From assembly GCA_937958875.1 (NCBI GenBank), contig CALGMJ010000186.1, forward strand, positions 1 through 34,393: a DNA stretch of 34,393 bases. Direction: 5' to 3'. The notes below the pieces were generated by a model. That model was not told the origin of the DNA. It saw only the letters and a list, made by a program, of their open reading frames with translations, and did not search any database. This DNA comes from an uncultured Verrucomicrobiales bacterium (lineage in GTDB: Bacteria > Verrucomicrobiota > Verrucomicrobiia > Verrucomicrobiales > Akkermansiaceae). Positions 243-19,139 of this stretch are shown one piece after another. The position numbers and the translations under genes were made by a program. Each line of letters begins with the position of its first letter. Position 1 is the stretch's first letter.

Positions 243-1934
243 GTGATTGTCGGAGAAAAGAACGTGGGGCAAAGGGTGTTTAGATACCCGGTTGTTTGGA
301 TCGTATTGGCGAGCGCTTTCGCCCATCTTTGGTGTTTAAATTCGGTCTTTTTTCTCGATGATATTCCTCACATCCGAGACAATGCTTATCTTCACGAAGG
401 AGATTGGTGGCGCGTTCCGGTATTTCTGAGATGGACGTATTTCAGTTATTGGATTCAGACGAAGCTATGGGGATTTTCGACGGTTGGGTTTCATTGCGTT
501 AATTGGGGACTGCATACCGCGGTGGCATGTGCGCTGTATGGCTTTGCAAAGCAGGCCTTGCGGGATGAATCTGGGGCAGCGGTGCCGTTGATTGGGGCTC
601 TTCTTTTCGTGGTGCACCCTTTAGGGAGTGAGATTCCAAATTACGCCCGAACTCAGGATATCGCGTGGGTGACTTTATTTTCGATTCTTGGTGTCTGGAG
701 TTTAGTGAGGATTAGCCGTGAATTTTCCTGGTCGGGGTTGTTTTTTCTCGGGCTGATGTTGGCTGGGGCGTCGCTGTCAAAAGGTCCCGGTTTTTTTCAT
801 GCCGTGATGATGATTGGAGGATGCGCTATCGTTTATCTTCCGTGGCGCCGATTGTTGGTTCGGGTAACGAAGAAGAAGTGGGTGGTTTTTGGTGTTTTTT
901 TAGTGATCTTGTTGGGATGGATGGGCACAGGTGGGATGGAGTGGTATGGGATGAGGCACTGGGGGTCACAGGAATTGTATTGGCATGGGGTGACGCTGTG
1001 CCGGGTGTTCTGGCGTTTTGTAGCACTTTTCTTTTACCCAACAGGATTTTCCGCTGATCATTTTATTGCTGGGACCATTTCTTGGGATGACCCGGCTGCG
1101 ATTCCCTCAGTGATAGGGCTCGGATGCTGGGTGATCGTAGCGGGCGGCTTGATAGTTTTTAGGAAAACTCGATTTTTAGGGATGTGTCTCATGCTTTTTT
1201 CGGGAGCCATCGTCCTGAGAATGCTTTTTTTGATTAATGAGTTTATGCCTGAATATCGGATCTATCCTGGCTTGCCATGGCTAGCGCTAGCGGTGGGCTG
1301 GATGATCAATGGGGGGCTACAGAAACTGAGAACTCCTGCGTGGCAAAGGGGTGCTTCGGTGGTTTTGACGGTGGGCGTAGTTGTTATAGCGGGGCTTTCG
1401 ATGAGGAGGGCTTTTGTGTGGCACGATCTGGAAGACTTGAGTCAAGAGGTGCTCCATCAATATCCGGCGAAAGGACGAGCCCTCTGGATGCTGCAGCGTG
1501 CAGATATTGAGAAGGGGAATTGGCAAGCGGTTCTCGATCGTCATGTTGAATTCGAACAGGTGGAAAGAGCCTTTTTCGAAGAATCTCAAAAGGGAGTGCC
1601 CGGGAGAGAGCTTTCGGGTGGGCATCTGATGTTAGCTCAATTTGCCTGTCTCGGATATTATGCCGAGGCTCTTGCTGCGACTGGGAAGGGGCAAATGGCA
1701 GAGCAAGTGATTGACGCTCTTCTAAAGGCTGTAGACGGACCAGGTATCCCGCAGGCGAATCAGAAAAATCTCAAACTTCTTGTTCAGCGAGCGCAAGCGC
1801 GAGTTTTAGAGAGAGGTGGAAAGTTACTGGCAGCACTGCAAATTTTAGAGAGGCTACCCAAACGTGATCAATCATTTATCGATAGGAAGCGATTACTTGA
1901 GATCATAAAAAAACCTCACTCCGAGGCGGAGTGA
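243..1934 (+). CDS. TMTC/PMT-like GT-C membrane glycosyltransferase with helical C-terminal part
   Basis: A 563-residue polytopic membrane protein. An N-terminal helix is followed by an extracytoplasmic loop with the acidic pair FLDDIPHI, placed as in GT-C glycosyltransferases. The following stretch (YFSYWIQTKLWGFSTVGFH, then N-x-x-LH) resembles the N-terminal region of TMTC/DUF1736 proteins. About ten hydrophobic segments run to roughly residue 400. The rest is soluble, helix-rich and TPR-like. By family it would transfer a sugar from a lipid-linked donor on the periplasmic face; the acceptor cannot be read from the sequence. The start is GTG, preceded by GAGGAGA at 224-230, one of the few SD-like sites in the window. 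The last codons form the left arm of a terminator. Family is moderately sure, substrate unknown. Confidence 0.65.
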   Translation: MIVGEKNVGQRVFRYPVVWIVLASAFAHLWCLNSVFFLDDIPHIRDNAYLHEGDWWRVPVFLRWTYFSYWIQTKLWGFSTVGFHCVNWGLHTAVACALYGFAKQALRDESGAAVPLIGALLFVVHPLGSEIPNYARTQDIAWVTLFSILGVWSLVRISREFSWSGLFFLGLMLAGASLSKGPGFFHAVMMIGGCAIVYLPWRRLLVRVTKKKWVVFGVFLVILLGWMGTGGMEWYGMRHWGSQELYWHGVTLCRVFWRFVALFFYPTGFSADHFIAGTISWDDPAAIPSVIGLGCWVIVAGGLIVFRKTRFLGMCLMLFSGAIVLRMLFLINEFMPEYRIYPGLPWLALAVGWMINGGLQKLRTPAWQRGASVVLTVGVVVIAGLSMRRAFVWHDLEDLSQEVLHQYPAKGRALWMLQRADIEKGNWQAVLDRHVEFEQVERAFFEESQKGVPGRELSGGHLMLAQFACLGYYAEALAATGKGQMAEQVIDALLKAVDGPGIPQANQKNLKLLVQRAQARVLERGGKLLAALQILERLPKRDQSFIDRKRLLEIIKKPHSEAE

Positions 1935-1941
1935 GGTCTTT
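1907..1941. terminator. Bidirectional intrinsic terminator
   Basis: A perfect 10-bp stem, CCTCACTCCG (1914-1923) with CGGAGTGAGG (1927-1936), and a 3-nt loop. Seven A residues at 1907-1913 give a U-tract on the minus strand; TCTTT follows on the plus strand. It lies between two convergent genes. The stem includes the last codons and stop codon of the plus-strand glycosyltransferase. Confidence 0.85.
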
Positions 1942-1965
1942 GAAATTTAAGATTAGTGAGTCCTA

Positions 1966-2559
1966 CTAACTACGCTTGCGTCTGCCAAGAAGGAGACACG
2001 CGCCAAGCGAGCTGAGAACCAAGGAACTTGGTTCTGGGACAGGGATGGTTGTAGCAAATGGAGATGATGCATCTTCCCAGACTAAATCATCTGATACAAC
2101 TGGAGGAAAGTCCGGGCCTGCAAGATTAATGTTCCGTGGAAGCGGATCACCGCCGTTACCGGGATCACCCTGTAGAGTCCATTCGAGATTGTTCGGATTA
2201 GTGACGGTATTAAAATTTCCGTTACGATCAGTGAATCTCAAAGCGACTTGAGCACCTGCTTCATAGGGCGAAGTTTCTGAATCTAATTCGATTCTACCCG
2301 TATAGTGACCTGCTTCTCCACCTGTTCCAAAATTGAATGACCCAAGTGGAGTCCAAGTTCCGAGTAAAGCAGAGGTGTCGGCTCCTGTGCCAGTGAAAAT
2401 CCCTAACTCAACCAGGCCACTATCAATAGGCTGTCCTGTTTGGTTATTGATTGTGAATGTCGATCCAAAAAACGATTGATTATCAATTTGTAGCGCAGCT
2501 GTGAATGCGCTGAGGTTACCTGCAAGAGCAAGTGATAAAAGAGTAGTAGTTGTTTTCAT
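1966..2559 (-). CDS. PEP-CTERM sorting-signal exported protein
   Basis: A 197-residue exported protein. It begins with a signal peptide (MKTTTTLLSLALAGNLSAFTA). It ends with a PEP-CTERM tripartite signal: VPEPSS around residue 174, a short hydrophobic helix (LVLSSLGACLLLG) and a basic tail RRKRS. In known systems this signal is processed by an exosortase and directs proteins to the surface or exopolysaccharide. The middle, rich in Gly, Asn and Thr, has no motif I recognise. It lies 21 bp downstream of the TIGR02597-like gene on the same strand, so the two are probably co-transcribed, ending at the 1907-1941 terminator. No exosortase gene is in the window. Confidence 0.85.
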   Translation of the reverse strand: MKTTTTLLSLALAGNLSAFTAALQIDNQSFFGSTFTINNQTGQPIDSGLVELGIFTGTGADTSALLGTWTPLGSFNFGTGGEAGHYTGRIELDSETSPYEAGAQVALRFTDRNGNFNTVTNPNNLEWTLQGDPGNGGDPLPRNINLAGPDFPPVVSDDLVWEDASSPFATTIPVPEPSSLVLSSLGACLLLGRRKRS

Positions 2560-6665: not shown

Positions 6666-8672
6666 ATGTCCATGTGGAATGAAGATCGTCTTGAACTCGC
6701 TTTTCGGGCTTCAAAGGAAGGGATCTGGGATTGGAACCTAGAGAAGGGGACGATATTTTACTCAGGGAGAACTTTGCGCTTTCTGGGCTACCGTCGGGCT
6801 GATGCGCCACATCTTTTTCTGGAGACAGAGAAGCTGATGGATGAGGAATCTCAGACCGCTTTTCGTGAGGCTTACCAGCAATTGGAAGCAGAAGAGACGG
6901 ATCTCTTTGCGGTGGAGCCTAGGATGAAGACTCGGCGTGGGCGCTGGAAGTGGTTCCGAGTGCGGGGGACTCCGGTGCGGGATGATGAGGGGAAAATTTT
7001 ACGGCTTGTGGGGTCTGTGATTGATATTTCCAAGCGCAAGACTGCGGAGCTTGAGCTGGTAGAAGAGCAGGCACTCATGGCCTCGCTGATCGAGAATATC
7101 TCGATGAGTGTTTACTTTAAGGATTTGGAGTCCCGTTTCGTGATGGCGAATACGCCGACCGCTCATAAGATGGGATTGGATAAAGTCTCAAAGCTGCTGG
7201 GGAACACGGACGCCGATTTTTTCTCGAAGGAGCATGCCGAAGGCTCTCGAGAGCAGGAAAAAACGATTATACGGAGTGGGGTGGGGTTGGAAAAGCATCT
7301 CGAGCGCGAAGAGTGGCCGGATCAAAGCCATACTTGGGTGCATACGTGTAAAAAGCCGTGGCGTGGGCGCGACGGAAAAGTGAAGGGGCTATTTGGCGTC
7401 GCTAGTGATGTGACCGAATTCATTGAGGCGCAGAAGGAACAGGAAAGGGTGGCTTCTCAGCTGCATGAGACGAATCAGCTCATCGAAGAAGAGCGGCATC
7501 TCCTGCGATTGGTCATCGATAACGTGCCGTTGAATGTATATTTTAAAGATCGAGATTCCTGTTTCGTGCTCGTGAATCAGGCGATGGCAATTTGGTTGGG
7601 GAAAGAAAAGCCTGAAGACCTCCAGGGGAAGAGTGATCGGGATTTCTTTTCTGAGGAGCACTGGAGAGCTGCTGAGACAGATGAGCAGAAGATCATGCGG
7701 ACCGGCGAGTCGATGCAGGGAGAGGTGGAGCGTGAGACCTGGGGGGGGAAGAGTGACACTTGGGTTATGACTTCTAAATATCCTTGGAAGGATGCTGATG
7801 GCCAGACTCTGGGGACCTTTGGTGTTTCGAGTGATGTAACAGATCTTGTACGAGCTCAGCGTGACTTAACTTCTCTGGCAGAGACGCTGCAGAAAAAAAA
7901 TCAGGAAATGGAGGAGGGGCTAAGTCTCGCGCGTGAAGTGCAGCAGGCGCTTATTCCTAGTGAATTGCCAGTGTATTCGGGTTGGGGTCAGGATGAAAAA
8001 TCACAATTGAAGTTCTATCACTTTTATCAACCTGCGTCTGAGCTGGCGGGTGATTTTTTTGAAATCCTTCCCCTTGGTGGTGATAAGGTTGGTTTTCTGG
8101 TGTGTGATGTCATGGGGCATGGAGTGCGCTCTGCTTTGGTGGTGGCGATGCTGAGAGGGTTAATCGAGAAGCAGGTGAAAGTGGTGGCGGGAGCTGGTGA
8201 ATTTTTGACAGGGCTAAATGAAGGCCTCACACATCTGCTTGAACAATCTGGGGTCAGTCTTTTTGCTACGGCGATCTGTGGGGTGGTGGATCTTGCAGAG
8301 GAGACGATTGAGCTTTCGCTAGCGGGGCATCCGAATCCGATAGCGGTGTTCCGTGATGGGGTTCGGCAGTTAGCTCCTCCTAAAGAAGCCCGTGGTCCGG
8401 CCTTAGGGATGATCGATTCCATTACCTATGGTGCAGTCACTCAGCCATTGGCGGGGTTGATTCGCTTAGTGTGTTTTACGGATGGATTACTGGAGGCTGA
8501 GAATGAGCATGGGGAGGAATTTGGGGTCACCCGGATGTTAGAGAAGATTGAGCAAGGCGGGCGCTTGGCTCCGCTGTTTAAGAATATGGTCAAGTCGGCC
8601 AGTATTTTTGCAGAGCAAGAGGTGTTCGATGATGATGTGTGCCTCTTAGGCTTAGAATTTAGTGCACGATGA
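6666..8672 (+). CDS. PAS-PAS-PAS-SpoIIE (PP2C-type) serine phosphatase, paralog 1
   Basis: A 668-residue soluble signalling protein. PAS 1 spans about 8-125 (KWFRVRGTPVRDDEGK, then LVGSVIDISKRK); PAS 2 about 135-258 and PAS 3 about 280-400, each with VYFKD and a terminal FGV-x-x-DVT. A helical linker (405-440, ending LAREVQQALIP) leads to the SpoIIE domain. That domain keeps the metal-binding aspartates in SELAGDFF, CDVMGHG, CFTDGL and FDDDVCLL. Such phosphatases dephosphorylate anti-sigma antagonists in partner-switching. No RsbV/RsbW-like partner is nearby. No membrane helix is seen, so PAS sensing should be cytoplasmic. It overlaps its paralog by 4 bp. Confidence 0.92.
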   Translation: MSMWNEDRLELAFRASKEGIWDWNLEKGTIFYSGRTLRFLGYRRADAPHLFLETEKLMDEESQTAFREAYQQLEAEETDLFAVEPRMKTRRGRWKWFRVRGTPVRDDEGKILRLVGSVIDISKRKTAELELVEEQALMASLIENISMSVYFKDLESRFVMANTPTAHKMGLDKVSKLLGNTDADFFSKEHAEGSREQEKTIIRSGVGLEKHLEREEWPDQSHTWVHTCKKPWRGRDGKVKGLFGVASDVTEFIEAQKEQERVASQLHETNQLIEEERHLLRLVIDNVPLNVYFKDRDSCFVLVNQAMAIWLGKEKPEDLQGKSDRDFFSEEHWRAAETDEQKIMRTGESMQGEVERETWGGKSDTWVMTSKYPWKDADGQTLGTFGVSSDVTDLVRAQRDLTSLAETLQKKNQEMEEGLSLAREVQQALIPSELPVYSGWGQDEKSQLKFYHFYQPASELAGDFFEILPLGGDKVGFLVCDVMGHGVRSALVVAMLRGLIEKQVKVVAGAGEFLTGLNEGLTHLLEQSGVSLFATAICGVVDLAEETIELSLAGHPNPIAVFRDGVRQLAPPKEARGPALGMIDSITYGAVTQPLAGLIRLVCFTDGLLEAENEHGEEFGVTRMLEKIEQGGRLAPLFKNMVKSASIFAEQEVFDDDVCLLGLEFSAR

Positions 8673-10681
8673 TGAAGGTTGGGGAAACAAGTGATGAGGA
8701 TGACCGTCTCGAGCTAGCTCTTAAGGCGTCCAATGAAGGGGTGTGGGATTGGCAGCTCGAGAGTGGAGAAATTTTTTACTCAAATCGTGTTCTCGGGTTT
8801 CTAGGCTATGGACGTGTTGGGGCTCCGAATATTTTTGCCGACCTTTCCACGCACGTTCATCCAGAAGATCTTGCAGGCTTTAAGAAGAAGCTCATTAGAG
8901 TGACCGTAGGTGGGGGGCGTCTCTTGGCAATCGAGCCTCGAATTAAAACAAGCTCGGGTCACTGGAAGTGGTTTCGAATCCGGGCTACGCCGGTGCATGA
9001 TGAAGACGGAAAAGTGGACCGTCTGGTAGGCTCGATTATCGATATCTCTAAGCGGAAGAATGCCGAGGCTGCTCTGGCTGAGGAGCAGCAGCGTATTGAG
9101 CTGCTCTTTGAGAATGTCCCGGTAAATGTTTATTTTAAGGATCTGAATTCGCATTTTATTCGGGCGAACCGATCAACTGCGCTGCGCATGGGAGCGGGCT
9201 CGGTGAAAGACCTGTTGGGAAAAACGGATCACGATTTTTTTGATGCGGCACATGCCGATGCCGCTCGGGCTTGTGAGATGGAGATTATCCGGACGGGAGA
9301 ACCTCAGAAGGAGAAGCTCGAGCACGAGATTTGGGATGATGGTCGGGAGACCTGGGTCATGGTGACTAAGAATCCCTGGCGTGGAAGTGACGGGCAGATT
9401 AAAGGAACCTTCGGAGTGACGCATGATGTTTCTGAACTTATGAAAGCTCAGAATGAAGTTGCAGCGGTGACGCGGCAGCTCAGCTCTGTCAATCAGGAGA
9501 TCGAGGGCGAACGCCACCTGCTTCGGCTCGTGATCGATAACATCCCGATGTATGTTTACTTTAAAAACCTGGAGTCACAGTTTGTTCTCGTGAATCAGGG
9601 GATGGTCGAACTCTTTGATGTGAAGAGTACGGACGAGATCATTGGGAAACATGATCGAGATTTTTTTGGTGAGGGATTTGGTGAAATTGCCTCTTCGGAT
9701 GAGGCTGCGGTGATGGAAGCTTGTGAGCCCATTGTGGGGCGTCTGGAGCGAATCCCTTGGGCTAATGGAAAGGTGACATATTCCCTTACCTCGAAGTTTC
9801 CCTGGATTGATAAAGACGGAAAGATTGCAGGGACCTTCGGGGTCTCAGCGGATGTGACCGAGCTGGTGGAAACACGAAATGAGCTCGCAAAAATTACCGA
9901 AGTTCTGGGGCGGAAAAATCAAGCGATTCAGGAAGAACTTCAGCTCGCGCGAGAGGTCCAGCAGGCTGCGATTCCAGAATGTTTACCGACTTTCCAGAGT
10001 GACCAGCGTGAGCTTCACTTTTACCATCGTTATGAACCGGCATCCGATCTCGCTGGTGACTTCTTTAAAGTGATTCCTCTTGGGAATGATCGCGTTGGAT
10101 TTCTGATTTGTGATGTTATGGGGCACGGGGTACGGGCGGCTCTCATCGTTTCCATGCTACGGGGCTTGATTGAAAAAGCGCTCGACTACTCAGAGGAGCC
10201 TCGGCTCTTTTTAAAAAGTCTGAACGATGGACTCAGTCACTTACTGGAGCGGACTTCTCTAACCATGTTTGCTACCGCTCTCTATGGAGTGGTGGATCTT
10301 GATACGATGACTCTGCGAGTTTCTTCTGCTGGTCATCCAGCTCCGCTTCTAAAGCGCGAGGGCGAGGTGGAGCAGATGGTCTTCGGTCACGAAGATAAAG
10401 GAATGGCGCTAGGATTACTGGAGGGGCTCGATTACCAAGAGCAGGAAATTTCTCTCAATGAAGTGGATGCTTTTATGTGTTTTACCGATGGTCTACCAGA
10501 GGTGGAAAATGAGGGACGCGAGGAATTTGGGACAGACCGGATGGCGCAAATTTTAACGGAGGCGACGGATCTTCGCTTGGGGATGGATCGCGCACTTTGT
10601 GCCGGGCGGGAATTTAGTGAGAAAGATCGCTTCGAAGATGATGTGTGCCTTTTGGGTTTAGAAGTACGATCACTTTCATAG
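8669..10681 (+). CDS. PAS-PAS-PAS-SpoIIE (PP2C-type) serine phosphatase, paralog 2
   Basis: A 670-residue protein, a close paralog of the previous gene with the same domain order: three PAS domains (about 12-128, 134-258, 282-402), a helical linker (ending LAREVQQAAIP) and SpoIIE (about 440-668). The catalytic aspartates are kept in SDLAGDFF, CDVMGHG, CFTDGL and FEDDVCLL. The start ATG overlaps the upstream stop (ATGA), implying co-transcription and probably translational coupling. The PAS domains differ more than the phosphatase cores, suggesting one output class with two inputs. Three bases after its stop, a minus-strand gene ends. Confidence 0.92.
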   Translation: MMKVGETSDEDDRLELALKASNEGVWDWQLESGEIFYSNRVLGFLGYGRVGAPNIFADLSTHVHPEDLAGFKKKLIRVTVGGGRLLAIEPRIKTSSGHWKWFRIRATPVHDEDGKVDRLVGSIIDISKRKNAEAALAEEQQRIELLFENVPVNVYFKDLNSHFIRANRSTALRMGAGSVKDLLGKTDHDFFDAAHADAARACEMEIIRTGEPQKEKLEHEIWDDGRETWVMVTKNPWRGSDGQIKGTFGVTHDVSELMKAQNEVAAVTRQLSSVNQEIEGERHLLRLVIDNIPMYVYFKNLESQFVLVNQGMVELFDVKSTDEIIGKHDRDFFGEGFGEIASSDEAAVMEACEPIVGRLERIPWANGKVTYSLTSKFPWIDKDGKIAGTFGVSADVTELVETRNELAKITEVLGRKNQAIQEELQLAREVQQAAIPECLPTFQSDQRELHFYHRYEPASDLAGDFFKVIPLGNDRVGFLICDVMGHGVRAALIVSMLRGLIEKALDYSEEPRLFLKSLNDGLSHLLERTSLTMFATALYGVVDLDTMTLRVSSAGHPAPLLKREGEVEQMVFGHEDKGMALGLLEGLDYQEQEISLNEVDAFMCFTDGLPEVENEGREEFGTDRMAQILTEATDLRLGMDRALCAGREFSEKDRFEDDVCLLGLEVRSLS

Positions 10682-10684
10682 TTT

Positions 10685-12010
10685 TTAGCGGGTATGCGAT
10701 TTGAAGTCGATCCAGTAGCGATGTTCGAGAGTGACGATTTCTGGGCATTCTTGGTCGTGATTCCACCGTGTTTTCACGGTGACCGGGTGAAGATTTCCGG
10801 GAGCCGTATCTAGGATGCGGCTGAGCTGGTGGGAGAATGGAGCGCTTGGGTCTGCATAGGCAAAGACTTGTTGCTGAGGAGTATGAGAACTCATGCCAAA
10901 GAAGGGCTCACCCTGTGAAATGTCTCGCAGTTGACGGGAGATGAATACTCGCATCGTAATCGGTGAGGAGGGTTTTTGATCGATAAATGATTCCCAAGAA
11001 ATTTCATCATAGCCGACAGATGATTCCCAATCGATGAGGAAAGATTCACCCTTCGGTAAGAGGTTGAAAATATGAGAGGCGTTCGCTTGATCTTTCGCGA
11101 GGACGACGAAAAAGGGGAGTCCTTCTTGGGCGAAAAAATTTTCATTCACAATTTCTAGAAATCCTTGTGGCGGGGTGATTTTAGGGCGGCCGAAAAACTC
11201 CTTCATGAGGGGGATTTTTGATTCCCCATCGATCAAGACATGACTGCGCTCCTGGTTAGAGTCTGCATTCATATAAGCTTCGACGATTCTTCGGGCCTCG
11301 TTACTGATTTCGAGCGAACTCGCTTTTTCCATAAAGCGGCCTTGAATTTCTGAGTCTGAATTTGAGGACTCTGTCAGTGGGGTTGTTGCCTTGGGCTGAT
11401 TAGGTGGGCGTAGTCCCCAGAAAAAAAGTGCACACAGAGCTGCCGCGCCGAGAGCGAGGAGATACTTAAGAGGAATGAGCTGCGTGATCCATTGTCCAGG
11501 AACTGCCTCACGATCTTGATCTGCCAGCGGGAGCGTGGAAGGGCTCTGAAGTTCTACGGGGTCGCCGAGATATTGCTCATCCAGAGAGCTGCCACTTCGG
11601 CGTTGCGCTTCTAGCCGTGAGTCTGGGAGTTCTGAATTTTGAGTGACACCTGCGAGTTCTTCCTGAGTGGGTTCACGGAGAGGGAACTCACGAGCAAGTC
11701 TTTGGACTTCGAGAAGTTTTTTTCTGTTTGTAACTGGGTCAGATAGCTCTCTACGCAGAGATTCGTAGCGTAAGGCCATCTCAACGTAGAGCTGTCGGAG
11801 GCGCTCATTTTCTTCGCGAAGCCGATTCAGGCTATGATCTTCATTCCCTTGCGGATGAAGAGTGTAAGAGGCCCAGCTTTGAATCGTCTCTTCGGGGATT
11901 CCATACCGCTCGCTAAGAAAGGAAAGGTTTTCGCCTCGTTCGAGCTGAGCGATGATTTCCTCTCTTTTATTGGCTGAGATTTGAGCATGTGATATTTTTT
12001 GATCAGCCAT
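10685..12010 (-). CDS. HTH, coiled-coil, single-TM protein with uncharacterised C-terminal domain
   Basis: A 441-residue protein of unusual architecture. Residues 10-50 look like a helix-turn-helix of the transposase/sigma-4 type (FLSERYGIPEETIQSWASYT). Residues 60-110 form a coiled coil (LREENERLRQLYVEMALRYE). One membrane helix lies at about 181-200 (LKYLLALGAAALCALFFWGL). The C-terminal 215 residues contain LIDWESSVGYDEISWESF, a pattern I associate with an uncharacterised domain in verrucomicrobial and planctomycetal exported proteins. The domain starts with a helix (ARRIVEAYMNADSNQERSHVL). The protein could couple a periplasmic domain to a cytoplasmic HTH, but the real function is unknown. 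It is tail-to-tail with the phosphatase pair. Confidence 0.75.
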   Translation of the reverse strand: MADQKISHAQISANKREEIIAQLERGENLSFLSERYGIPEETIQSWASYTLHPQGNEDHSLNRLREENERLRQLYVEMALRYESLRRELSDPVTNRKKLLEVQRLAREFPLREPTQEELAGVTQNSELPDSRLEAQRRSGSSLDEQYLGDPVELQSPSTLPLADQDREAVPGQWITQLIPLKYLLALGAAALCALFFWGLRPPNQPKATTPLTESSNSDSEIQGRFMEKASSLEISNEARRIVEAYMNADSNQERSHVLIDGESKIPLMKEFFGRPKITPPQGFLEIVNENFFAQEGLPFFVVLAKDQANASHIFNLLPKGESFLIDWESSVGYDEISWESFIDQKPSSPITMRVFISRQLRDISQGEPFFGMSSHTPQQQVFAYADPSAPFSHQLSRILDTAPGNLHPVTVKTRWNHDQECPEIVTLEHRYWIDFKSHTR

Positions 12011-13251: not shown

Positions 13252-14157
13252 TCAATAATCGCGGTCTAGCAAGTAGTGCGCGATGGCCTCTAAGTGGGTT
13301 GCCTTTTTTCCGAAGATAGACAGGGAGTCGAGAGCTTTTGTTGTGAGGCGAGCTGCTTCTTTTTTCGACTTTTCCAGGCCAAGAATAGAAGGGTAGGTGG
13401 CTTTATTGACGCTCTCGTCTTTACCGGCTGTCTTACCGAGTTTTTCGGTCGACTGAGTGACGTCGAGAATGTCATCGATGACCTGAAAGGCGAGTCCGAG
13501 GTTGTATCCGAAGGTGGTGAGGGCTTCTAATTTTTTAGGCGTGGCATTTGCAGTCATGCCTCCGAGCCTGAGAGAGGTGGTGAGAAGAGCCGCGGTTTTG
13601 TTTTCGTGAATTTTAATGAGCTGAGCCTTGGTGAGATCTTTACCCTCACCTTCGAGATCGAGCACTTGGCCGCCGATTAATTTTTTAGATCCGCCGCAGA
13701 TAGAAAATTCCTGAATGATTTCCTTTAGCGAATAACGCGCCGTGGGCTCAGTCTCAGCAATGATGGTGAAGGCCTCGGTAAGAAGGGCATCTCCAGTGAG
13801 GACAGCCATTCCTTCCCCGTAGACTTTATGAGAAGTCGGGCGTCCTCGGCGGAGGTCATCGTCATCCATCGCTGGGAGGTCATCATGAACGAGGGAGTAT
13901 GTGTGCATGATTTCTACCGCGCAGGCAGAAGGGAGTGCGGCTTCAGGTTCTCCGCCGCAGGCTTCAGCCGCGGAGAGAGTTAAGATGGGGCGAAGCCGTT
14001 TTCCTCCCGCGAAGATCGAGTAGCGCATCGCTTCATGGATCGTCTTAGGTGCGGCATTCGCGCGGGGGAGAAACTTACCGAGAGCTTGATCGACGAGCAG
14101 TTGTTGACTTTTCAGATAGGCTTTGAGGTCAGACACGGCGCAGTCATTAAGGAACAA
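13252..14157 (-). CDS. ispA: Farnesyl/geranyl diphosphate synthase (polyprenyl synthetase)
   Basis: A 301-residue short-chain isoprenyl diphosphate synthase. The first aspartate-rich motif is DDLPAMDDDDLRRGRP (from residue 92), preceded by YSLVH. Tyr at the fifth position before the motif fits C15 products. The second motif is IDDILD near 228, followed by KLGKTAGKDE. GGKRLRP (51-57) binds isopentenyl diphosphate. It supplies precursors for quinone tails and undecaprenyl phosphate. The start is uncertain: TTG at 14157 gives the usual length, and GTG at 14136 is also possible. It is divergent from the peroxiredoxin gene. Confidence 0.9.
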   Translation of the reverse strand: MFLNDCAVSDLKAYLKSQQLLVDQALGKFLPRANAAPKTIHEAMRYSIFAGGKRLRPILTLSAAEACGGEPEAALPSACAVEIMHTYSLVHDDLPAMDDDDLRRGRPTSHKVYGEGMAVLTGDALLTEAFTIIAETEPTARYSLKEIIQEFSICGGSKKLIGGQVLDLEGEGKDLTKAQLIKIHENKTAALLTTSLRLGGMTANATPKKLEALTTFGYNLGLAFQVIDDILDVTQSTEKLGKTAGKDESVNKATYPSILGLEKSKKEAARLTTKALDSLSIFGKKATHLEAIAHYLLDRDY

Positions 14158-14220: not shown

Positions 14221-14727
14221 ATGAAATTAACGACGCTTTTTTCTTGGCTTTGCACAACCTTATTTTCGGTCGGGAATGTGCTCGAAATCGGTGATCCGTT
14301 GCCAAACCTGCATGGGGTTAATCAGAAAGGGGAAAAGCTCGTTATTAAATCGAAAAAGCCAGATGGCTGGCTTCTGGTTTTCACTTATCCTAAGGCTCTC
14401 ACTCCGGGATGAACGAAGCAGGTTTGTTCAGTGCGGGACGCATTTGATAAGATGACAGAGAAGAAGGTAACGGTTTTTGGCCTTTCAACAGATTCCGTGG
14501 AGACGCAGTTGAAATTTCATCAAGAGCATCAGCTGTCTTTCGATCTCATTTCAGATGAGAAAGGAAAAATTGCTCAAGCGCTTGGAATTCCGGTGAAGCT
14601 CGGAGGACGTTTTATGGCGCGGCGTGCTTATCTTTTCCGTGATGGAAAACTCTTTTGGAAAGATGAAGAGGGGGCCACTAAAACTCAGGGCGAGGAGGTC
14701 CTCGCCGTGATTAAAAAGTCCTCGTAG
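14221..14727 (+). CDS. Selenocysteine-containing PrxQ/BCP-type peroxiredoxin (TGA at 14410-14412 read as Sec64)
   Basis: One frame runs through a single internal TGA and encodes 168 residues. The sequence around it is YPKALTPG-TGA-TKQVCSVRD. This is the PxxxTxxC active site of PrxQ/BCP with TGA in place of the peroxidatic Cys, and the resolving Cys69 exactly five residues later. Downstream, FHQEHQLSFDLISDEKG and GRFMARRAYLFRDGK match the family fold. The frame is intact on both sides. The N-terminus MKLTTLFSWLCTTLFSV looks like a signal peptide, so it probably reduces peroxides in the periplasm. A SECIS-like hairpin follows the TGA. An upstream TTG at 14212 is a possible start. A recent nonsense mutation is the alternative. 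No selA/B/C/D is in the window. Confidence 0.85.
14410..14412 (+). other. In-frame TGA predicted to be a selenocysteine codon
   Basis: This is the only in-frame stop in the peroxiredoxin and sits at the peroxidatic cysteine position. TGC or TGT would be the cysteine codons, one substitution away. Recoding requires SelB, tRNA-Sec and a SECIS; only the SECIS candidate can be seen here. Confidence 0.8.
14423..14451 (+). promoter_or_regulatory. Candidate bacterial SECIS hairpin
   Basis: The upper stem AGTGC (14430-14434) pairs with GCATT (14440-14444), including one G-U pair, around the loop GGGAC. If G and C close, the loop is GGA. After one C/U mismatch, six more pairs (three G-U) extend it to 14423 and 14451. 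The apical loop begins with G and starts 22 nt after the TGA. Known bacterial SECIS elements have a G in the first two loop positions and lie about 16-37 nt downstream. Confidence 0.6.
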
Positions 14728-14738: not shown

Positions 14739-15959
14739 TTAGCGGCGTTTCCGGCGTGAGGAACCACCACGCTTCTTCTTTTTGAAGCTCTTAATGGGCG
14801 AATCATCAAGCATGGCGGTGTATTCGTAGTCGAAGCCTTCCAGCTTTTTGCGCTCGATTTTCTTTTCTAAGAAACATTCTACCGAAGTCGCGTAGTCGAG
14901 CTCGTCTGCGGTGAGCAGGGTGAAAGCATCGCCTTCCTGTTTGGCTCGGCCAGTCCGGCCAATCCGGTGAACGTAGTCCTCCGCATTTTCCGGTACGCGG
15001 TAGTTGATGACATGAGTGACTCCTGAGATGTCGATTCCTCGTGCTGCAACATCGGTCGCTACCAGCACTTTGAATTGGCCATCTTTAAATCCTTTCAGAG
15101 CTTTCATTCGATCACTCTGACGGATGTCTGAGTGCATCGCGGTGACCTTGCCTTTCAAGGCTTCCACCTCGTTAAGCATTGCGGTCACGGTGTCCGCTTC
15201 TTTTCGAGTTCTTGTGAAGACCATGACAGAATCGAAATCCGTTTTTTCTAAAAGACCAAGGAGAAGGCCATCACGCTGGGTCATAGCGACAGGGTAGAAA
15301 GCATGTGAAACCGTGGAGGCAACTTCGGCTCGAGCGATTTCGACCGAAGATGGATCAGTGAGACACCACTCGGCGAAGCCCTTGATGACAGGGGGCATGG
15401 TCGCAGAGAAGAAAAGAGTCTGGCGTGTCTGCTCTTCATTATTCCAGGGGCAGATATTGATGATTTTACGAACCTGAGGGAGGAAACCCATGTCGAGCAT
15501 GCGGTCGACTTCATCTAGAATCAAAACCTTGAGGGCGCCGAAGCGCACTGTGGTCCGATAGAAATGATCAATGAGGCGGCCGGGGCAGGCCACGATGATG
15601 TCAGCTCCAGCTTTGAGTTGTTCATCTTGTTTGCCGTAACCGACACCTCCGTAGAGAAGCGCGACTTTCAAGCTCGTATGCTTTCCGTAAGCGATAAATT
15701 GCTCTGCCACTTGGTCCGCCAATTCACGGGTTGGTTCGAGAACGAGAATCTGAGGTTTCCCCAGAGGTTCGATTTTAGAAAGAGAAGGGAGTGCGAAAGC
15801 TGCTGTCTTACCTGTGCCCGTCTGGGATGCTCCGATGACATCTTTTCCTTCCAGGACAAGCGGGATAGCCTCTGCCTGAATAGGCGTAGGTTCTTCATAA
15901 CCCGCCTCAGTAACGGCTTGGAGAACGGGGGCGGAAAGGCCGAGCTGGTCGAAAGGCAT
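14739..15959 (-). CDS. DEAD-box-type ATP-dependent RNA helicase (RhlE-like)
   Basis: A 406-residue helicase core. Motifs in order: TPIQ (Q motif), ASQTGTGKT (44-52), EPTREL, CPGRLID, motif II DEVD (149-152) followed by RMLDMGF, SAT (185-187), VFTRTR, ATDVAARGID and HRIGRTGR (331-338). The RMLDMGF context and overall layout are RhlE-like. Motif II reads DEVD instead of DEAD; the two acidic residues are kept. The tail is short and very basic (KKKKRGGSSRRKRR), likely for RNA binding. Roles in ribosome assembly, RNA decay or cold adaptation are typical. Convergent with the peroxiredoxin. Confidence 0.93.
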   Translation of the reverse strand: MPFDQLGLSAPVLQAVTEAGYEEPTPIQAEAIPLVLEGKDVIGASQTGTGKTAAFALPSLSKIEPLGKPQILVLEPTRELADQVAEQFIAYGKHTSLKVALLYGGVGYGKQDEQLKAGADIIVACPGRLIDHFYRTTVRFGALKVLILDEVDRMLDMGFLPQVRKIINICPWNNEEQTRQTLFFSATMPPVIKGFAEWCLTDPSSVEIARAEVASTVSHAFYPVAMTQRDGLLLGLLEKTDFDSVMVFTRTRKEADTVTAMLNEVEALKGKVTAMHSDIRQSDRMKALKGFKDGQFKVLVATDVAARGIDISGVTHVINYRVPENAEDYVHRIGRTGRAKQEGDAFTLLTADELDYATSVECFLEKKIERKKLEGFDYEYTAMLDDSPIKSFKKKKRGGSSRRKRR

Positions 15960-16027: not shown

Positions 16028-17011
16028 CTAGCGAAAGCGAAGCCGTAGTCCTCGGGGCTTCCAGAAGCGTTCCAATCGGCCCTGAACTTGCCTCGCTTCC
16101 TCTGGAGTAATCAATTTTGGAAGGGGAGTTTGAGTATTCTTCACTGTCGCGATTTTGGTGAGGTAGGTTTTCACTATTTCCAGTCTCTCTTCGCCGCCAT
16201 GAAAGTGATAATGGATCAGAAGTAAAGCGGAGGAATAAGCTTCGAGGACCTCTGCGGGGGGCAGTTTTGAGACTCTCTCACGCCACCCATCTGAGCTGAG
16301 CCCTACGAGATCAGCAAGTGCTGTTACCTGTGTGTGCGACTGTGAGGGCGGTAGGTGCGCTCGAAGATGGTCTTTGATTCTCACATCAATCCGATTGAAA
16401 CGGAAGCTGCCCTCATGAGTGTGAGCGGCGGCTAGATATTCCGCTACCCCTTCATGAAACCACGTATCGTATTTCCATAAATGCTCATGCATACATAAAT
16501 GCGTGAGTTCGTGAATAAGCAGATCGTGGTTAGGACGAGCGCGTCCCGTTTCTGAAAAGAAAAATTTTCCTCGCAGAATCACATGCTGCTTTCTCCCATC
16601 ATAAACGCCAGCAGCTCCGATGTGGCCCCCAGCTTTTAGAAATGATTCATCGTCATTAAAGATTCGCACCTGAGGGCGTCCCTTCCGTGGAGGAGAAAAG
16701 AGTGCCAGTGGAAAGCGTTTCAGAATCACTGGAACGGATTCGATGGTTTGAGTGAAGCCCCTAAGCTGGGTTGGATTCATCTTTTCCGGTGACTCGATCA
16801 GAAAATGTTGGCTCTGGTATCGGTGAGCCATACCATTCCACGGTAATATGCGCGCCTCACGATGGATGGGTAAAGTCGGCTGGAAACTCTGTGGCCATGA
16901 CTGTCCCAGCGCTAAGCTGCAGGACAGAAGTATGAGAAGAATAGCCATCGGGAATGAGGTGATCATCAGAAAACTAGGGAGCATGAAAACAAAGAAGTGA
17001 CGGAATCTCAT
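16028..17011 (-). CDS. Exported gluzincin-type zinc peptidase (peptidase MA/DUF1570-like)
   Basis: About 327 residues. A hydrophobic N-terminus (MAILLILLSCSLALGQSW) acts as signal peptide or anchor. The zinc motif HELTH (167-171, counted from 17011) is followed by WFHEGVAEYLAAA with a likely glutamate ligand at 187, the pattern of peptidase MA-like enzymes. RIFNDDESFLKAGG and AAGVYDG before the motif also fit that group. Several in-frame starts exist (17062, 17011, 16966, 16948). 17011 is a compromise and 16966 gives the most compact signal peptide. The start region is divergent from rpsP. Substrate unknown. Confidence 0.75.
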   Translation of the reverse strand: MRFRHFFVFMLPSFLMITSFPMAILLILLSCSLALGQSWPQSFQPTLPIHREARILPWNGMAHRYQSQHFLIESPEKMNPTQLRGFTQTIESVPVILKRFPLALFSPPRKGRPQVRIFNDDESFLKAGGHIGAAGVYDGRKQHVILRGKFFFSETGRARPNHDLLIHELTHLCMHEHLWKYDTWFHEGVAEYLAAAHTHEGSFRFNRIDVRIKDHLRAHLPPSQSHTQVTALADLVGLSSDGWRERVSKLPPAEVLEAYSSALLLIHYHFHGGEERLEIVKTYLTKIATVKNTQTPLPKLITPEEARQVQGRLERFWKPRGLRLRFR

Positions 17012-17073
17012 AAAAAAAGCTTGGCAAAGAGGCGGAATTCCAACAGCTTCCGCCCTCCACAACTCCGAGCTTT

Positions 17074-17792: not shown

Positions 17793-19037
17793 TTAGCGAT
17801 GGATCGGTAAGGTAGGATCACCGAGCAGGTGAAGTTCACAGAGACACATATGAAAATTTGGTGACTCCTTCGCCCGTTCAGCGAGCAGGGACTTCGTTTT
17901 CATCAGGGCTTCTCCGGTGGTGAGGGAGTGGGTGATTCCTTCTTGCCAGAAAAGAGTCATCGTTTCGGTGGTGCCGTCGAGTTTTCCTTCCTTCATCATG
18001 AGCGGGAAGTCGCGGCGGGGGTCAGTGAAGTGTGGTTTGCCTTCCCGGCACGGGGCGACGATGGCGACTGCTCCGGCTTTTGGGAGGCGGAGCATCGCTT
18101 CTGTGATGCATGGATCTTCTGCGGCATCGAAGTGGCCGGTGAAGCAGGAGACGGTGGTGATGATAGGGTAGTGGTTTTCGTTTTTCAGCTGATTGAGATG
18201 CTTTTCACTGAAAAAAGAGCGATCATCTTCCATGACCCAGCCGTGGATGAGGCCATGACCGTGGAGGTGGAGTTTCCCATAACGGTGGTCATTGAAGATT
18301 TTGACCCAGTTCTCCGCCGTGATTTCGTAGTCGCCAGGTGCGTCTTTATCCCACGGGCTTTCATCGGCAAAAAAGCGTTCTGCTTTTCCTTCAGGGAGGC
18401 TTTTTGAAATGTAGTCATCCCAGCTATTACGTACTTTCGGGTAAGCGCCGGCGACGGTGCAGGTGTAGAGAAACGAGTTTGAGAAATCGCTTTTCTTTGG
18501 GCTGGTCTCATAGGCTTTCACTTTTTCGGTGTAAGCTTTGACATCCTCAGCGGTGCGGACGGGGATGCGCCCGAGGCCGACGCTGCCATCGGGGTAAGTG
18601 ATTGCTGCTCGATCATCGTCAAACTCGCCGATGATACCATCTCCATCGGCATCCCAATTCGTAGGGGAGAGATAAAAGATATCGGCAGGGATGTCTGCAT
18701 TTTCGCCCCACATTGTGGAATGGACGGTGTCCTGGTCTGGGACGAATTTGGTTCCGTCAGGTGAGCTGTCACCGCCCAAAATTAACCATTTGGTGCCGGA
18801 TTTGAGATGAGTCTGAACCTCTTGGCGGATTTTCTCAGGTGTGGATTCCTTGCCTTCGTGAGCTGCAATTTTTTCTACCGTGACGAGAGTGACGTCAATA
18901 TTGCGCGTTTTTTTCCATGCAATGAAGTCTTCCCATGCTGGTGCGAGTTCGCTGGTGGTGACCAGGAGGGCCTTTTCTTTCGCCTGAATGAAAGGGGTGA
19001 GAAGGAGGGCGAGTGAAAAAGAGAAACGATTCATCAT
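17793..19037 (-). CDS. Exported gingipain-like (C25 family) cysteine protease
   Basis: About 414 residues starting MMNRFSFSLALLLTPFIQAKEK, a signal peptide. A GTG at 19058 is a longer option. The core follows C25: WLILGGDSS, then DIFYLS, DADGDGIIGEFDDD (acidic, possibly Ca-binding), VGLGRIPVRT, LHLHGHGLIHGW with candidate catalytic His261, and TTVSCFTGHFD with candidate nucleophile Cys298. Gingipains are extracellular proteases. This one has no visible prodomain, Ig-like domain or C-terminal sorting domain, so it is a minimal form. It is monocistronic with no clear partner. The catalytic residue choice is inferred from spacing. Confidence 0.75.
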   Translation of the reverse strand: MMNRFSFSLALLLTPFIQAKEKALLVTTSELAPAWEDFIAWKKTRNIDVTLVTVEKIAAHEGKESTPEKIRQEVQTHLKSGTKWLILGGDSSPDGTKFVPDQDTVHSTMWGENADIPADIFYLSPTNWDADGDGIIGEFDDDRAAITYPDGSVGLGRIPVRTAEDVKAYTEKVKAYETSPKKSDFSNSFLYTCTVAGAYPKVRNSWDDYISKSLPEGKAERFFADESPWDKDAPGDYEITAENWVKIFNDHRYGKLHLHGHGLIHGWVMEDDRSFFSEKHLNQLKNENHYPIITTVSCFTGHFDAAEDPCITEAMLRLPKAGAVAIVAPCREGKPHFTDPRRDFPLMMKEGKLDGTTETMTLFWQEGITHSLTTGEALMKTKSLLAERAKESPNFHMCLCELHLLGDPTLPIHR

Positions 19038-19139
19038 GATTGGTGAAGACGCTCTCACAAATTTGAGGGGATGACAAACGCGTCATTTTAGAACAGCTCT
19101 TGTAAAGCTCTCTTTAATTCACGAAGAGGGCGTCGCGTC

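Follow-up and report, generated by a model that had tools for sequence, protein, structure and literature searches.

In a PrxQ-type peroxiredoxin with selenocysteine (Sec), a selenolate attacks the peroxide, a cysteine resolves the resulting selenenic acid and a thioredoxin-like reductant closes the cycle. PrxU is a peroxiredoxin with a peroxidatic Sec, as the protein described here very probably is, and its family model NF040737 is presumably named after the Sec-peroxiredoxin of Eubacterium acidaminophilum. The Planctomycetes belong to the same superphylum as the verrucomicrobia. Selenoproteins have been reported in them (PMC4807772). The Sec-peroxiredoxin of E. acidaminophilum is cited in PMC13188914, where the PxxxTxxU motif is named for the Sec-peroxiredoxin (Sec-Prx) family. 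Sec-Prx (TxxU, COG1225) is the second most abundant family of the Sargasso Sea set, with 43 genes (PMC1088965), and comprises 253 sequences in the GOS (PMC2398784); a survey of 2016 counted 91 proteins from 78 organisms (PMC5029168). Elsewhere, the family is entered as COG1225 (Bcp) (PMC9312934).

The string "Verrucomicrob" is absent from the main texts of PMC13188914, PMC2398784, PMC5029168, PMC1794560, PMC12013277, PMC9312934, PMC5330540 and PMC1088965, the supplements of which may list members. A literature search gave no paper on verrucomicrobial selenoproteins among the titles and the beginnings of the abstracts. The window analysed here, a stretch of 34,393 nucleotides, is contig C186 of an Akkermansiaceae genome of 2.94 Mb that is 77% complete and consists of 253 contigs. 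It contains a PrxQ gene interrupted by TGA, which is very probably a selenoprotein gene. The features of the locus and of two related genes are collected in Table 1.

Table 1. Features of the Sec-PrxQ locus and of two related genes. Positions are those of the window unless the row names another source.
Feature	Position	Strand	Basis or remark
Sec-PrxQ/BCP peroxiredoxin coding sequence, 168 aa, TAG stop	14221..14727	+	translation, Pfam, synteny with polyprenyl synthetase across genus orthologues
Hydrophobic N-terminus MKLTTLFSWLCTTLFSVGN, possible export signal	14221..14277	+	by eye; pLDDT 56 (residues 1-10), 61 (residues 11-20)
Thr61 of the PxxxTxxU active-site motif	14401..14403	+	invariant in alignments A2 (22 rows) and A3 (46 rows)
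UGA codon, Sec64, peroxidatic position	14410..14412	+	translation and homologue columns
Cys69, putative resolving Cys, Sec64 +5	14425..14427	+	in 22/22 genus orthologues and 39/40 Cys genes
SECIS-like hairpin	14425..14449	+	upper stem 14430-14435/14439-14444, loop GGA 14436-14438, 23 nt past UGA
Arg134, candidate catalytic Arg	14620..14622	+	invariant in A2 (22 rows) and A3 (46 rows)
Polyprenyl synthetase, divergent neighbour	13252..14157	-	PF00348; adjacency conserved within the genus
DEAD-box RNA helicase, convergent neighbour	14739..15959	-	Pfam; gene order comparison
Second Sec-PrxQ (L069), own genome, G000:C70:4400-4810	514-1035	+	TPGUIKQVKSLR, TGA at the U64 column
Genus orthologue with TGT for TGA (L025), genome G011	1498-1998	-	

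The reading frame interrupted by TGA

Translation with TGA read as U gave a single U, at residue 64, ahead of the TAG stop, which bears out the claim of an earlier note on this DNA that a frame of 168 codons carries one TGA at the peroxidatic position. The active-site stretch of the protein is TPGU64TKQVC69; the PxxxTxxU motif of PrxQ/BCP with a resolving cysteine five residues on, also read by that note, is present, and the resolving role of Cys69 is putative. For Arg134, we assume the catalytic role from peroxiredoxins in general.

The Pfam domain AhpC-TSA matched the read-through protein with 84.7 bits over residues 23-139, spanning the TGA. The piece after the TGA (104 aa) matched the same profile alone with 52 bits, starting at profile position 42, which agrees with the earlier observation that PrxQ sequence continues past the TGA. 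The piece before the TGA (63 aa) covered profile positions 1-40 with 13.1 bits, below the cut-off of 26. In the plain list of open reading frames, the gene appears just as a 98-aa fragment with a GTG start at 14431.

The TGA-interrupted PrxQ gene is a confirmed observation. In-frame TGA codons with at least 40 open codons on both sides occur in 43 cases in the window, this gene included, and it alone among them has a redox motif recognisable by eye at the TGA. As interrupted frames are not rare in the window, the weight of the argument rests on the position of the TGA and on its conservation.

Predicted fold and family membership

The AlphaFold model, computed from 46 rows, had a pLDDT of 90.1 and a pTM of 0.83, and Sec64 and Cys69 lie in one predicted helix (62-80). 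Among the ten best PDB folds, eight carry BCP or PrxQ in their names, and a yeast nuclear thiol peroxidase ranks first; by sequence, the top PDB matches were yeast Dot5, BCP entries and a peroxiredoxin. The NCBIfam model PRK09437 (thioredoxin-dependent thiol peroxidase) gave 90.7 bits against a cut-off of 140, which places the protein outside this narrow family. It has both the AhpC-TSA domain and the PxxxTxxU motif that define a Sec-peroxiredoxin of the COG1225 TxxU type, and its model has the BCP/PrxQ fold; the COG1225 placement rests on the Pfam domain, the motif and the fold. The N-terminus is possibly an export signal, and several genus orthologues have, by eye, a clearer SAAP-like cleavage site than the window protein.

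Components of Sec decoding in the genomes

The earlier note had proposed a search of the genome for the Sec machinery, and three of the four components were found in the own genome of the window. The tRNA-Sec scored 59.2 bits (Rfam cut-off 47) and was labelled by ARAGORN as tRNA-SeC with the anticodon tca; SelA scored 476.8 bits (cut-off 267.9) and SelB 307.3 bits (cut-off 242.25). No SelD was detected in the assembly, which is 77% complete; the best match reached 46.8 bits (cut-off 125). The missing SelD is likely a gap in the assembly. Of the 26 other genomes of the genus, 23 have a SelD above the cut-off, the exceptions being G015, G020 and G024.

Across 144 genomes of relatives (the own genome included), scores above the cut-off were obtained for SelA in 69 genomes, for SelD in 68 and for tRNA-Sec in 61, the last count coming from stricter filters that lose weak matches. 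One TGA is held by 59 of the 68 SelD matches above the cut-off (e.g., L055-L058), as expected for a Sec-containing selenophosphate synthetase.

A homologue of the peroxiredoxin was matched in 135 of the 144 genomes, and 90 loci were examined: the 30 first returned and 60 picked, which were all the remaining ones with an internal stop and part of those without. They are spread over 73 genomes, 37 with a TGA homologue and 36 with Cys loci only, the latter being judged on the examined loci, so that a further TGA homologue could lie there. All 37 genomes with a TGA homologue had one or more of SelA, SelD and tRNA-Sec above the cut-off, 35 had at least two and 24 had all three; in the Cys-only group, 27 of the 36 had none and 9 had one to three. 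SelA was present in 35 of the 37 TGA genomes versus 8 of the 36 Cys-only genomes (Fisher p = 7.8e-11, a test that ignores relatedness and includes some incomplete genomes). One candidate for a TGA genome without Sec components, G062, was rejected: its column has TGC, and the TGA seen is the end of its own gene (L048).

A SECIS-like hairpin downstream of the UGA codon

In the published bSECIS model, the loop has 3-9 nt with a G in the first two places and lies 16-37 nt from the UGA, the upper stem has 4-16 bp, and the free energy is at most -7.5 kcal/mol; some known elements do not fit the model (PMC13188914). The window hairpin has the bSECIS form, with a GGA loop, an upper stem of 6 bp and a spacing of 23 nt, and its energy of -5.8 kcal/mol fails the published limit. 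In the free RNA of the window, a competing hairpin containing the UGA has the greater stability. An Rfam search of the gene returned just two irrelevant snoRNA matches, far below the cut-off.

A hairpin of bSECIS form was found in all 21 TGA orthologues of the genus, in 9/9 TGA genes of the family, in 6 of the 20 other TGA homologues and in 15 of the 40 Cys genes. At -7.5 kcal/mol or below, the counts were 14/21, 4/9, 5/20 and 5/40, respectively, and one of the five Cys hairpins lay at the common place. The 20 other TGA homologues are mainly the second paralogue, in which the core of the hairpin has 3 bp and a bulge.

For the resampling test, the protein was kept fixed, synonymous codons were redrawn and the local folding energies were compared. 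Identical stretches were entered once (19 of 21 genus genes, 7 of 9 family genes, 17 of 19 paralogues and 40 of 40 Cys genes), and L068 was left out. The TGA genes of the genus had a mean energy of -7.39 versus -3.74 (sd 0.41) after resampling, and none of 400 resamplings was as low. The same (0/400) was obtained for the family TGA genes and for the TGA paralogues, and the Cys genes gave 57/400. For the window alone, the pairs were less striking than the energy, since 127 of 1000 resamplings matched the three core pairs and 49 of 1000 all nine.

Covariation was scored on 26 TGA orthologue sequences. In five of the seven stem pairs, both partners change in one or more sequences (14 cells). The score was 0.289 versus 0.103 in shuffled data (0/500), and with slid partners it did not exceed 0.115. 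These figures lean in the hairpin's favour, as the covarying changes go back to a small number of lineages and the same sequences had served to derive the structure. The lowest stem pair forms in 5 of the 26 sequences. At the codon level, position +8 is CGG in 45 of the 50 TGA genes and 8 of the 40 Cys genes, and position +10 is GCA in 42/50 and 0/40. The mean folding energies over the 39-60 nt past the codon did not separate TGA genes from Cys genes and lend no support; at 60 nt, they were -11.7 for the 30 TGA orthologues, -12.1 for the 20 other TGA homologues and -14.8 for the 40 Cys genes. By the resampling and covariation tests, the hairpin is kept in the TGA genes beyond the demands of the protein, which supports Sec insertion.

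The weak hairpin and the absence of SelD from the own assembly could also mean that the gene belongs to a Sec family and this strain inserts Sec inefficiently, with a mostly truncated product. We consider this highly improbable: the genome is incomplete and SelD is common in the rest of the genus, the window retains an intact upper stem and GGA loop, and the local folding energy of the window was matched by just 1 of 1000 synonymous resamplings.

Exchange of Sec and Cys codons at the U64 column

At the column of U64, the 90 loci have 50 TGA and 40 TGC or TGT codons and nothing else, a split that gives no prevalence because the loci were selected partly by their internal stop. The exchange of Cys and TGA in relatives, which had been proposed as a check of the selenoprotein reading, is therefore seen, and a TGA at one column in 50 loci with a Cys codon in the other 40 exceeds chance. 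In the genus (27 genomes), an orthologue was found in 22, with TGA in 21 and TGT in one (L025 of genome G011). Four further genomes (G015, G017, G018 and G020) gave no match at E 1e-20, and G022 has the paralogue only. The motif reads TGGU in 17 of the 21 TGA orthologues and TPGU in the window and three others. TGA also stands at this column in other genera of the family. In a scan of named genome contigs, the 80 loci listed had 6 TGA, 65 TGC and 9 TGT, from which no TGA frequency is derivable, as one of the two scan patterns demanded a Cys codon at the column; the six TGA loci are from Akkermansiaceae bacterium (3) and Roseibacillus sp. (3).

On a tree built from the 90 rows, TGA as a character required 5 changes versus 29.8 in shuffles; the root was placed for drawing only, several end branches are long, and a direction of change is read for L025 alone. 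This Cys gene is nested in the TGA clade of the genus, where it forms a group with eight TGA rows (97/94), and we read it as a likely Sec-to-Cys reversion. The three core pairs of the hairpin are broken at the common place in L025, while a different hairpin, 35 nt past the codon, passes the bSECIS filter. Genome G011 retains a TGA paralogue (L072) alongside the Cys gene. L025 would be a clean case of Sec/Cys exchange in which the RNA signal was lost once the UGA was gone.

These data bear on the possibility of a pseudogene or of an assembly or sequencing error, in which the TGA would be a nonsense mutation of an earlier Cys peroxiredoxin. A single base change turns TGC or TGT into TGA, and the window comes from a fragmented assembly. 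Nevertheless, the identical TGA occurs in 20 further genomes of the genus and in other genera of the family, and the frame and the domain run on for 104 codons past it. Several of ten gene pairs also show a third-position bias over the 57 codons past the TGA (1, 1 and 12 at positions 1, 2 and 3 for L029/L032; 3, 2 and 20 for L031/L033), although the pairs L020/L021 (4, 0, 3) and L020/L023 (4, 4, 4) are without it. The earlier note had named a TGA confined to one strain and accompanied by decay as the pattern that would speak against its reading; this pattern is absent, with TGA in nearly all of the genus orthologues found. We reject the pseudogene or error, a scarcely credible explanation, because the TGA is shared by independent genomes.

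Readthrough of UGA is known in bacteria, and the codon might be read as another residue (Trp, by near-cognate readthrough) or under a changed code, but this is hardly conceivable here, since 8 of the 34 open reading frames taken for genes in the window end in TGA, so that UGA is still a stop and a changed code is rejected, while Cys is aligned at the column in all 40 non-TGA homologues examined, and tRNA-Sec, SelA and SelB are present in the own genome.

Proposed decoding and catalysis

The selenoprotein reading is supported by the machinery, by the exchange column and by the absence of decay, with reservations regarding SelD and the weak hairpin. We infer that the gene very probably encodes a PrxQ/BCP peroxiredoxin with a peroxidatic Sec. 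The UGA at 14410 would be decoded in the cell by SelB and Sec-tRNA(UCA), guided by the hairpin just downstream. The selenolate of Sec64 would reduce the peroxide and become a selenenic acid, with which Cys69, five residues away in the same helix, could form a selenenyl-sulfide. A thioredoxin-like donor would then reduce the Se-S bond, and the protein may be exported.

A second Sec-PrxQ paralogue

The own genome has a second Sec-PrxQ gene (L069), which matched AhpC-TSA with 110.1 bits. It has Lys at +5 and a lipobox-like N-terminus, LVSCAH. In its paralogue group (L065-L084 without L068; further genus members are L070-L080, L082 and L083), Cys is found at +5 in 0/19 and at +54 in 19/19, and many N-termini look, by eye, like lipoprotein signals (TAC, VSC, AAC). 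Between +50 and +58, no Cys occurs in any of the 22 orthologues of the window gene from the genus. The corresponding position 118 (+54) of the window protein lies in a predicted helix (116-120).

The second Sec-PrxQ, without Cys at +5 and with a conserved Cys at +54, is more unusual than the window gene. We tentatively suggest, as a rather unlikely possibility, that there are two envelope Sec-PrxQ proteins: the window protein, exported and using Sec64 and Cys69, and the paralogue, a putative lipoprotein in which the resolving residue would have moved to a later helix or been replaced by an outside thiol. If true, this would be a selenium-based peroxide defence of the envelope, undescribed for the phylum, and would pair Sec with Cys in a way that is new to the PrxQ fold.

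Gene neighbourhood and other genes of the window

The divergent polyprenyl synthetase gene adjoins Sec-PrxQ in L119, in L120 and in every one of the 22 genus loci; the flanks of 1-2 kb of seven other loci compared (L043-L045, L130, L138, L143 and L146) showed no such gene. The helicase neighbour was found in the window locus only, among the loci compared, and the comparison of neighbourhoods gave nothing suggesting an operon.

Elsewhere in the window, 17793-19058 (-) encodes a protein of peptidase family C25 (172 bits), and 6666-10681 (+) holds tandem look-alike open reading frames of 668 and 670 aa of the PAS/SpoIIE type (Pfam on the first). The small protein at 1966-2559 (-) has a VPEPSS...GRRKRS tail that, by its look, resembles a PEP-CTERM sorting signal. 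Two predicted proteins, at 10685-12010 and 16028-17062 (-), had no Pfam match at E 0.001.

Comparison with known peroxiredoxins

Sec-peroxiredoxins (COG1225, TxxU) are already known, and the window gene is a further member of this family, well supported by its sequence. Most reports of them concern other phyla and marine metagenomes; here, the Sec-peroxiredoxin appears as a conserved trait of a verrucomicrobial genus, which recurs in the family of the genus and is hidden where a plain list of open reading frames shrinks the gene to a short fragment.

The Cys-type PrxQ/BCP proteins (PRK09437; Xanthomonas PrxQ, 5iiz; yeast Dot5, 2a4v) share the domain and the fold with the window protein, and 39 of the 40 Cys genes have a Cys at the peroxidatic position +5, as Cys69 in the window; unlike them, the window protein has Sec in place of the peroxidatic Cys. 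PrxU (NF040737) is another subfamily, to which the window protein scored 29 bits against a cut-off of 270. The bacterial Sec-Prx (COG1225/PF00578) are the closest: the window gene has their domain, the PxxxTxxU motif, the peroxidatic Sec, the TGA with a downstream hairpin and widespread Cys homologues. It differs from the described members in coming from a verrucomicrobial clade that is unnamed in the main texts of PMC1088965, PMC2398784, PMC9312934 and PMC13188914, and in the hydrophobic N-terminus, which suggests export.
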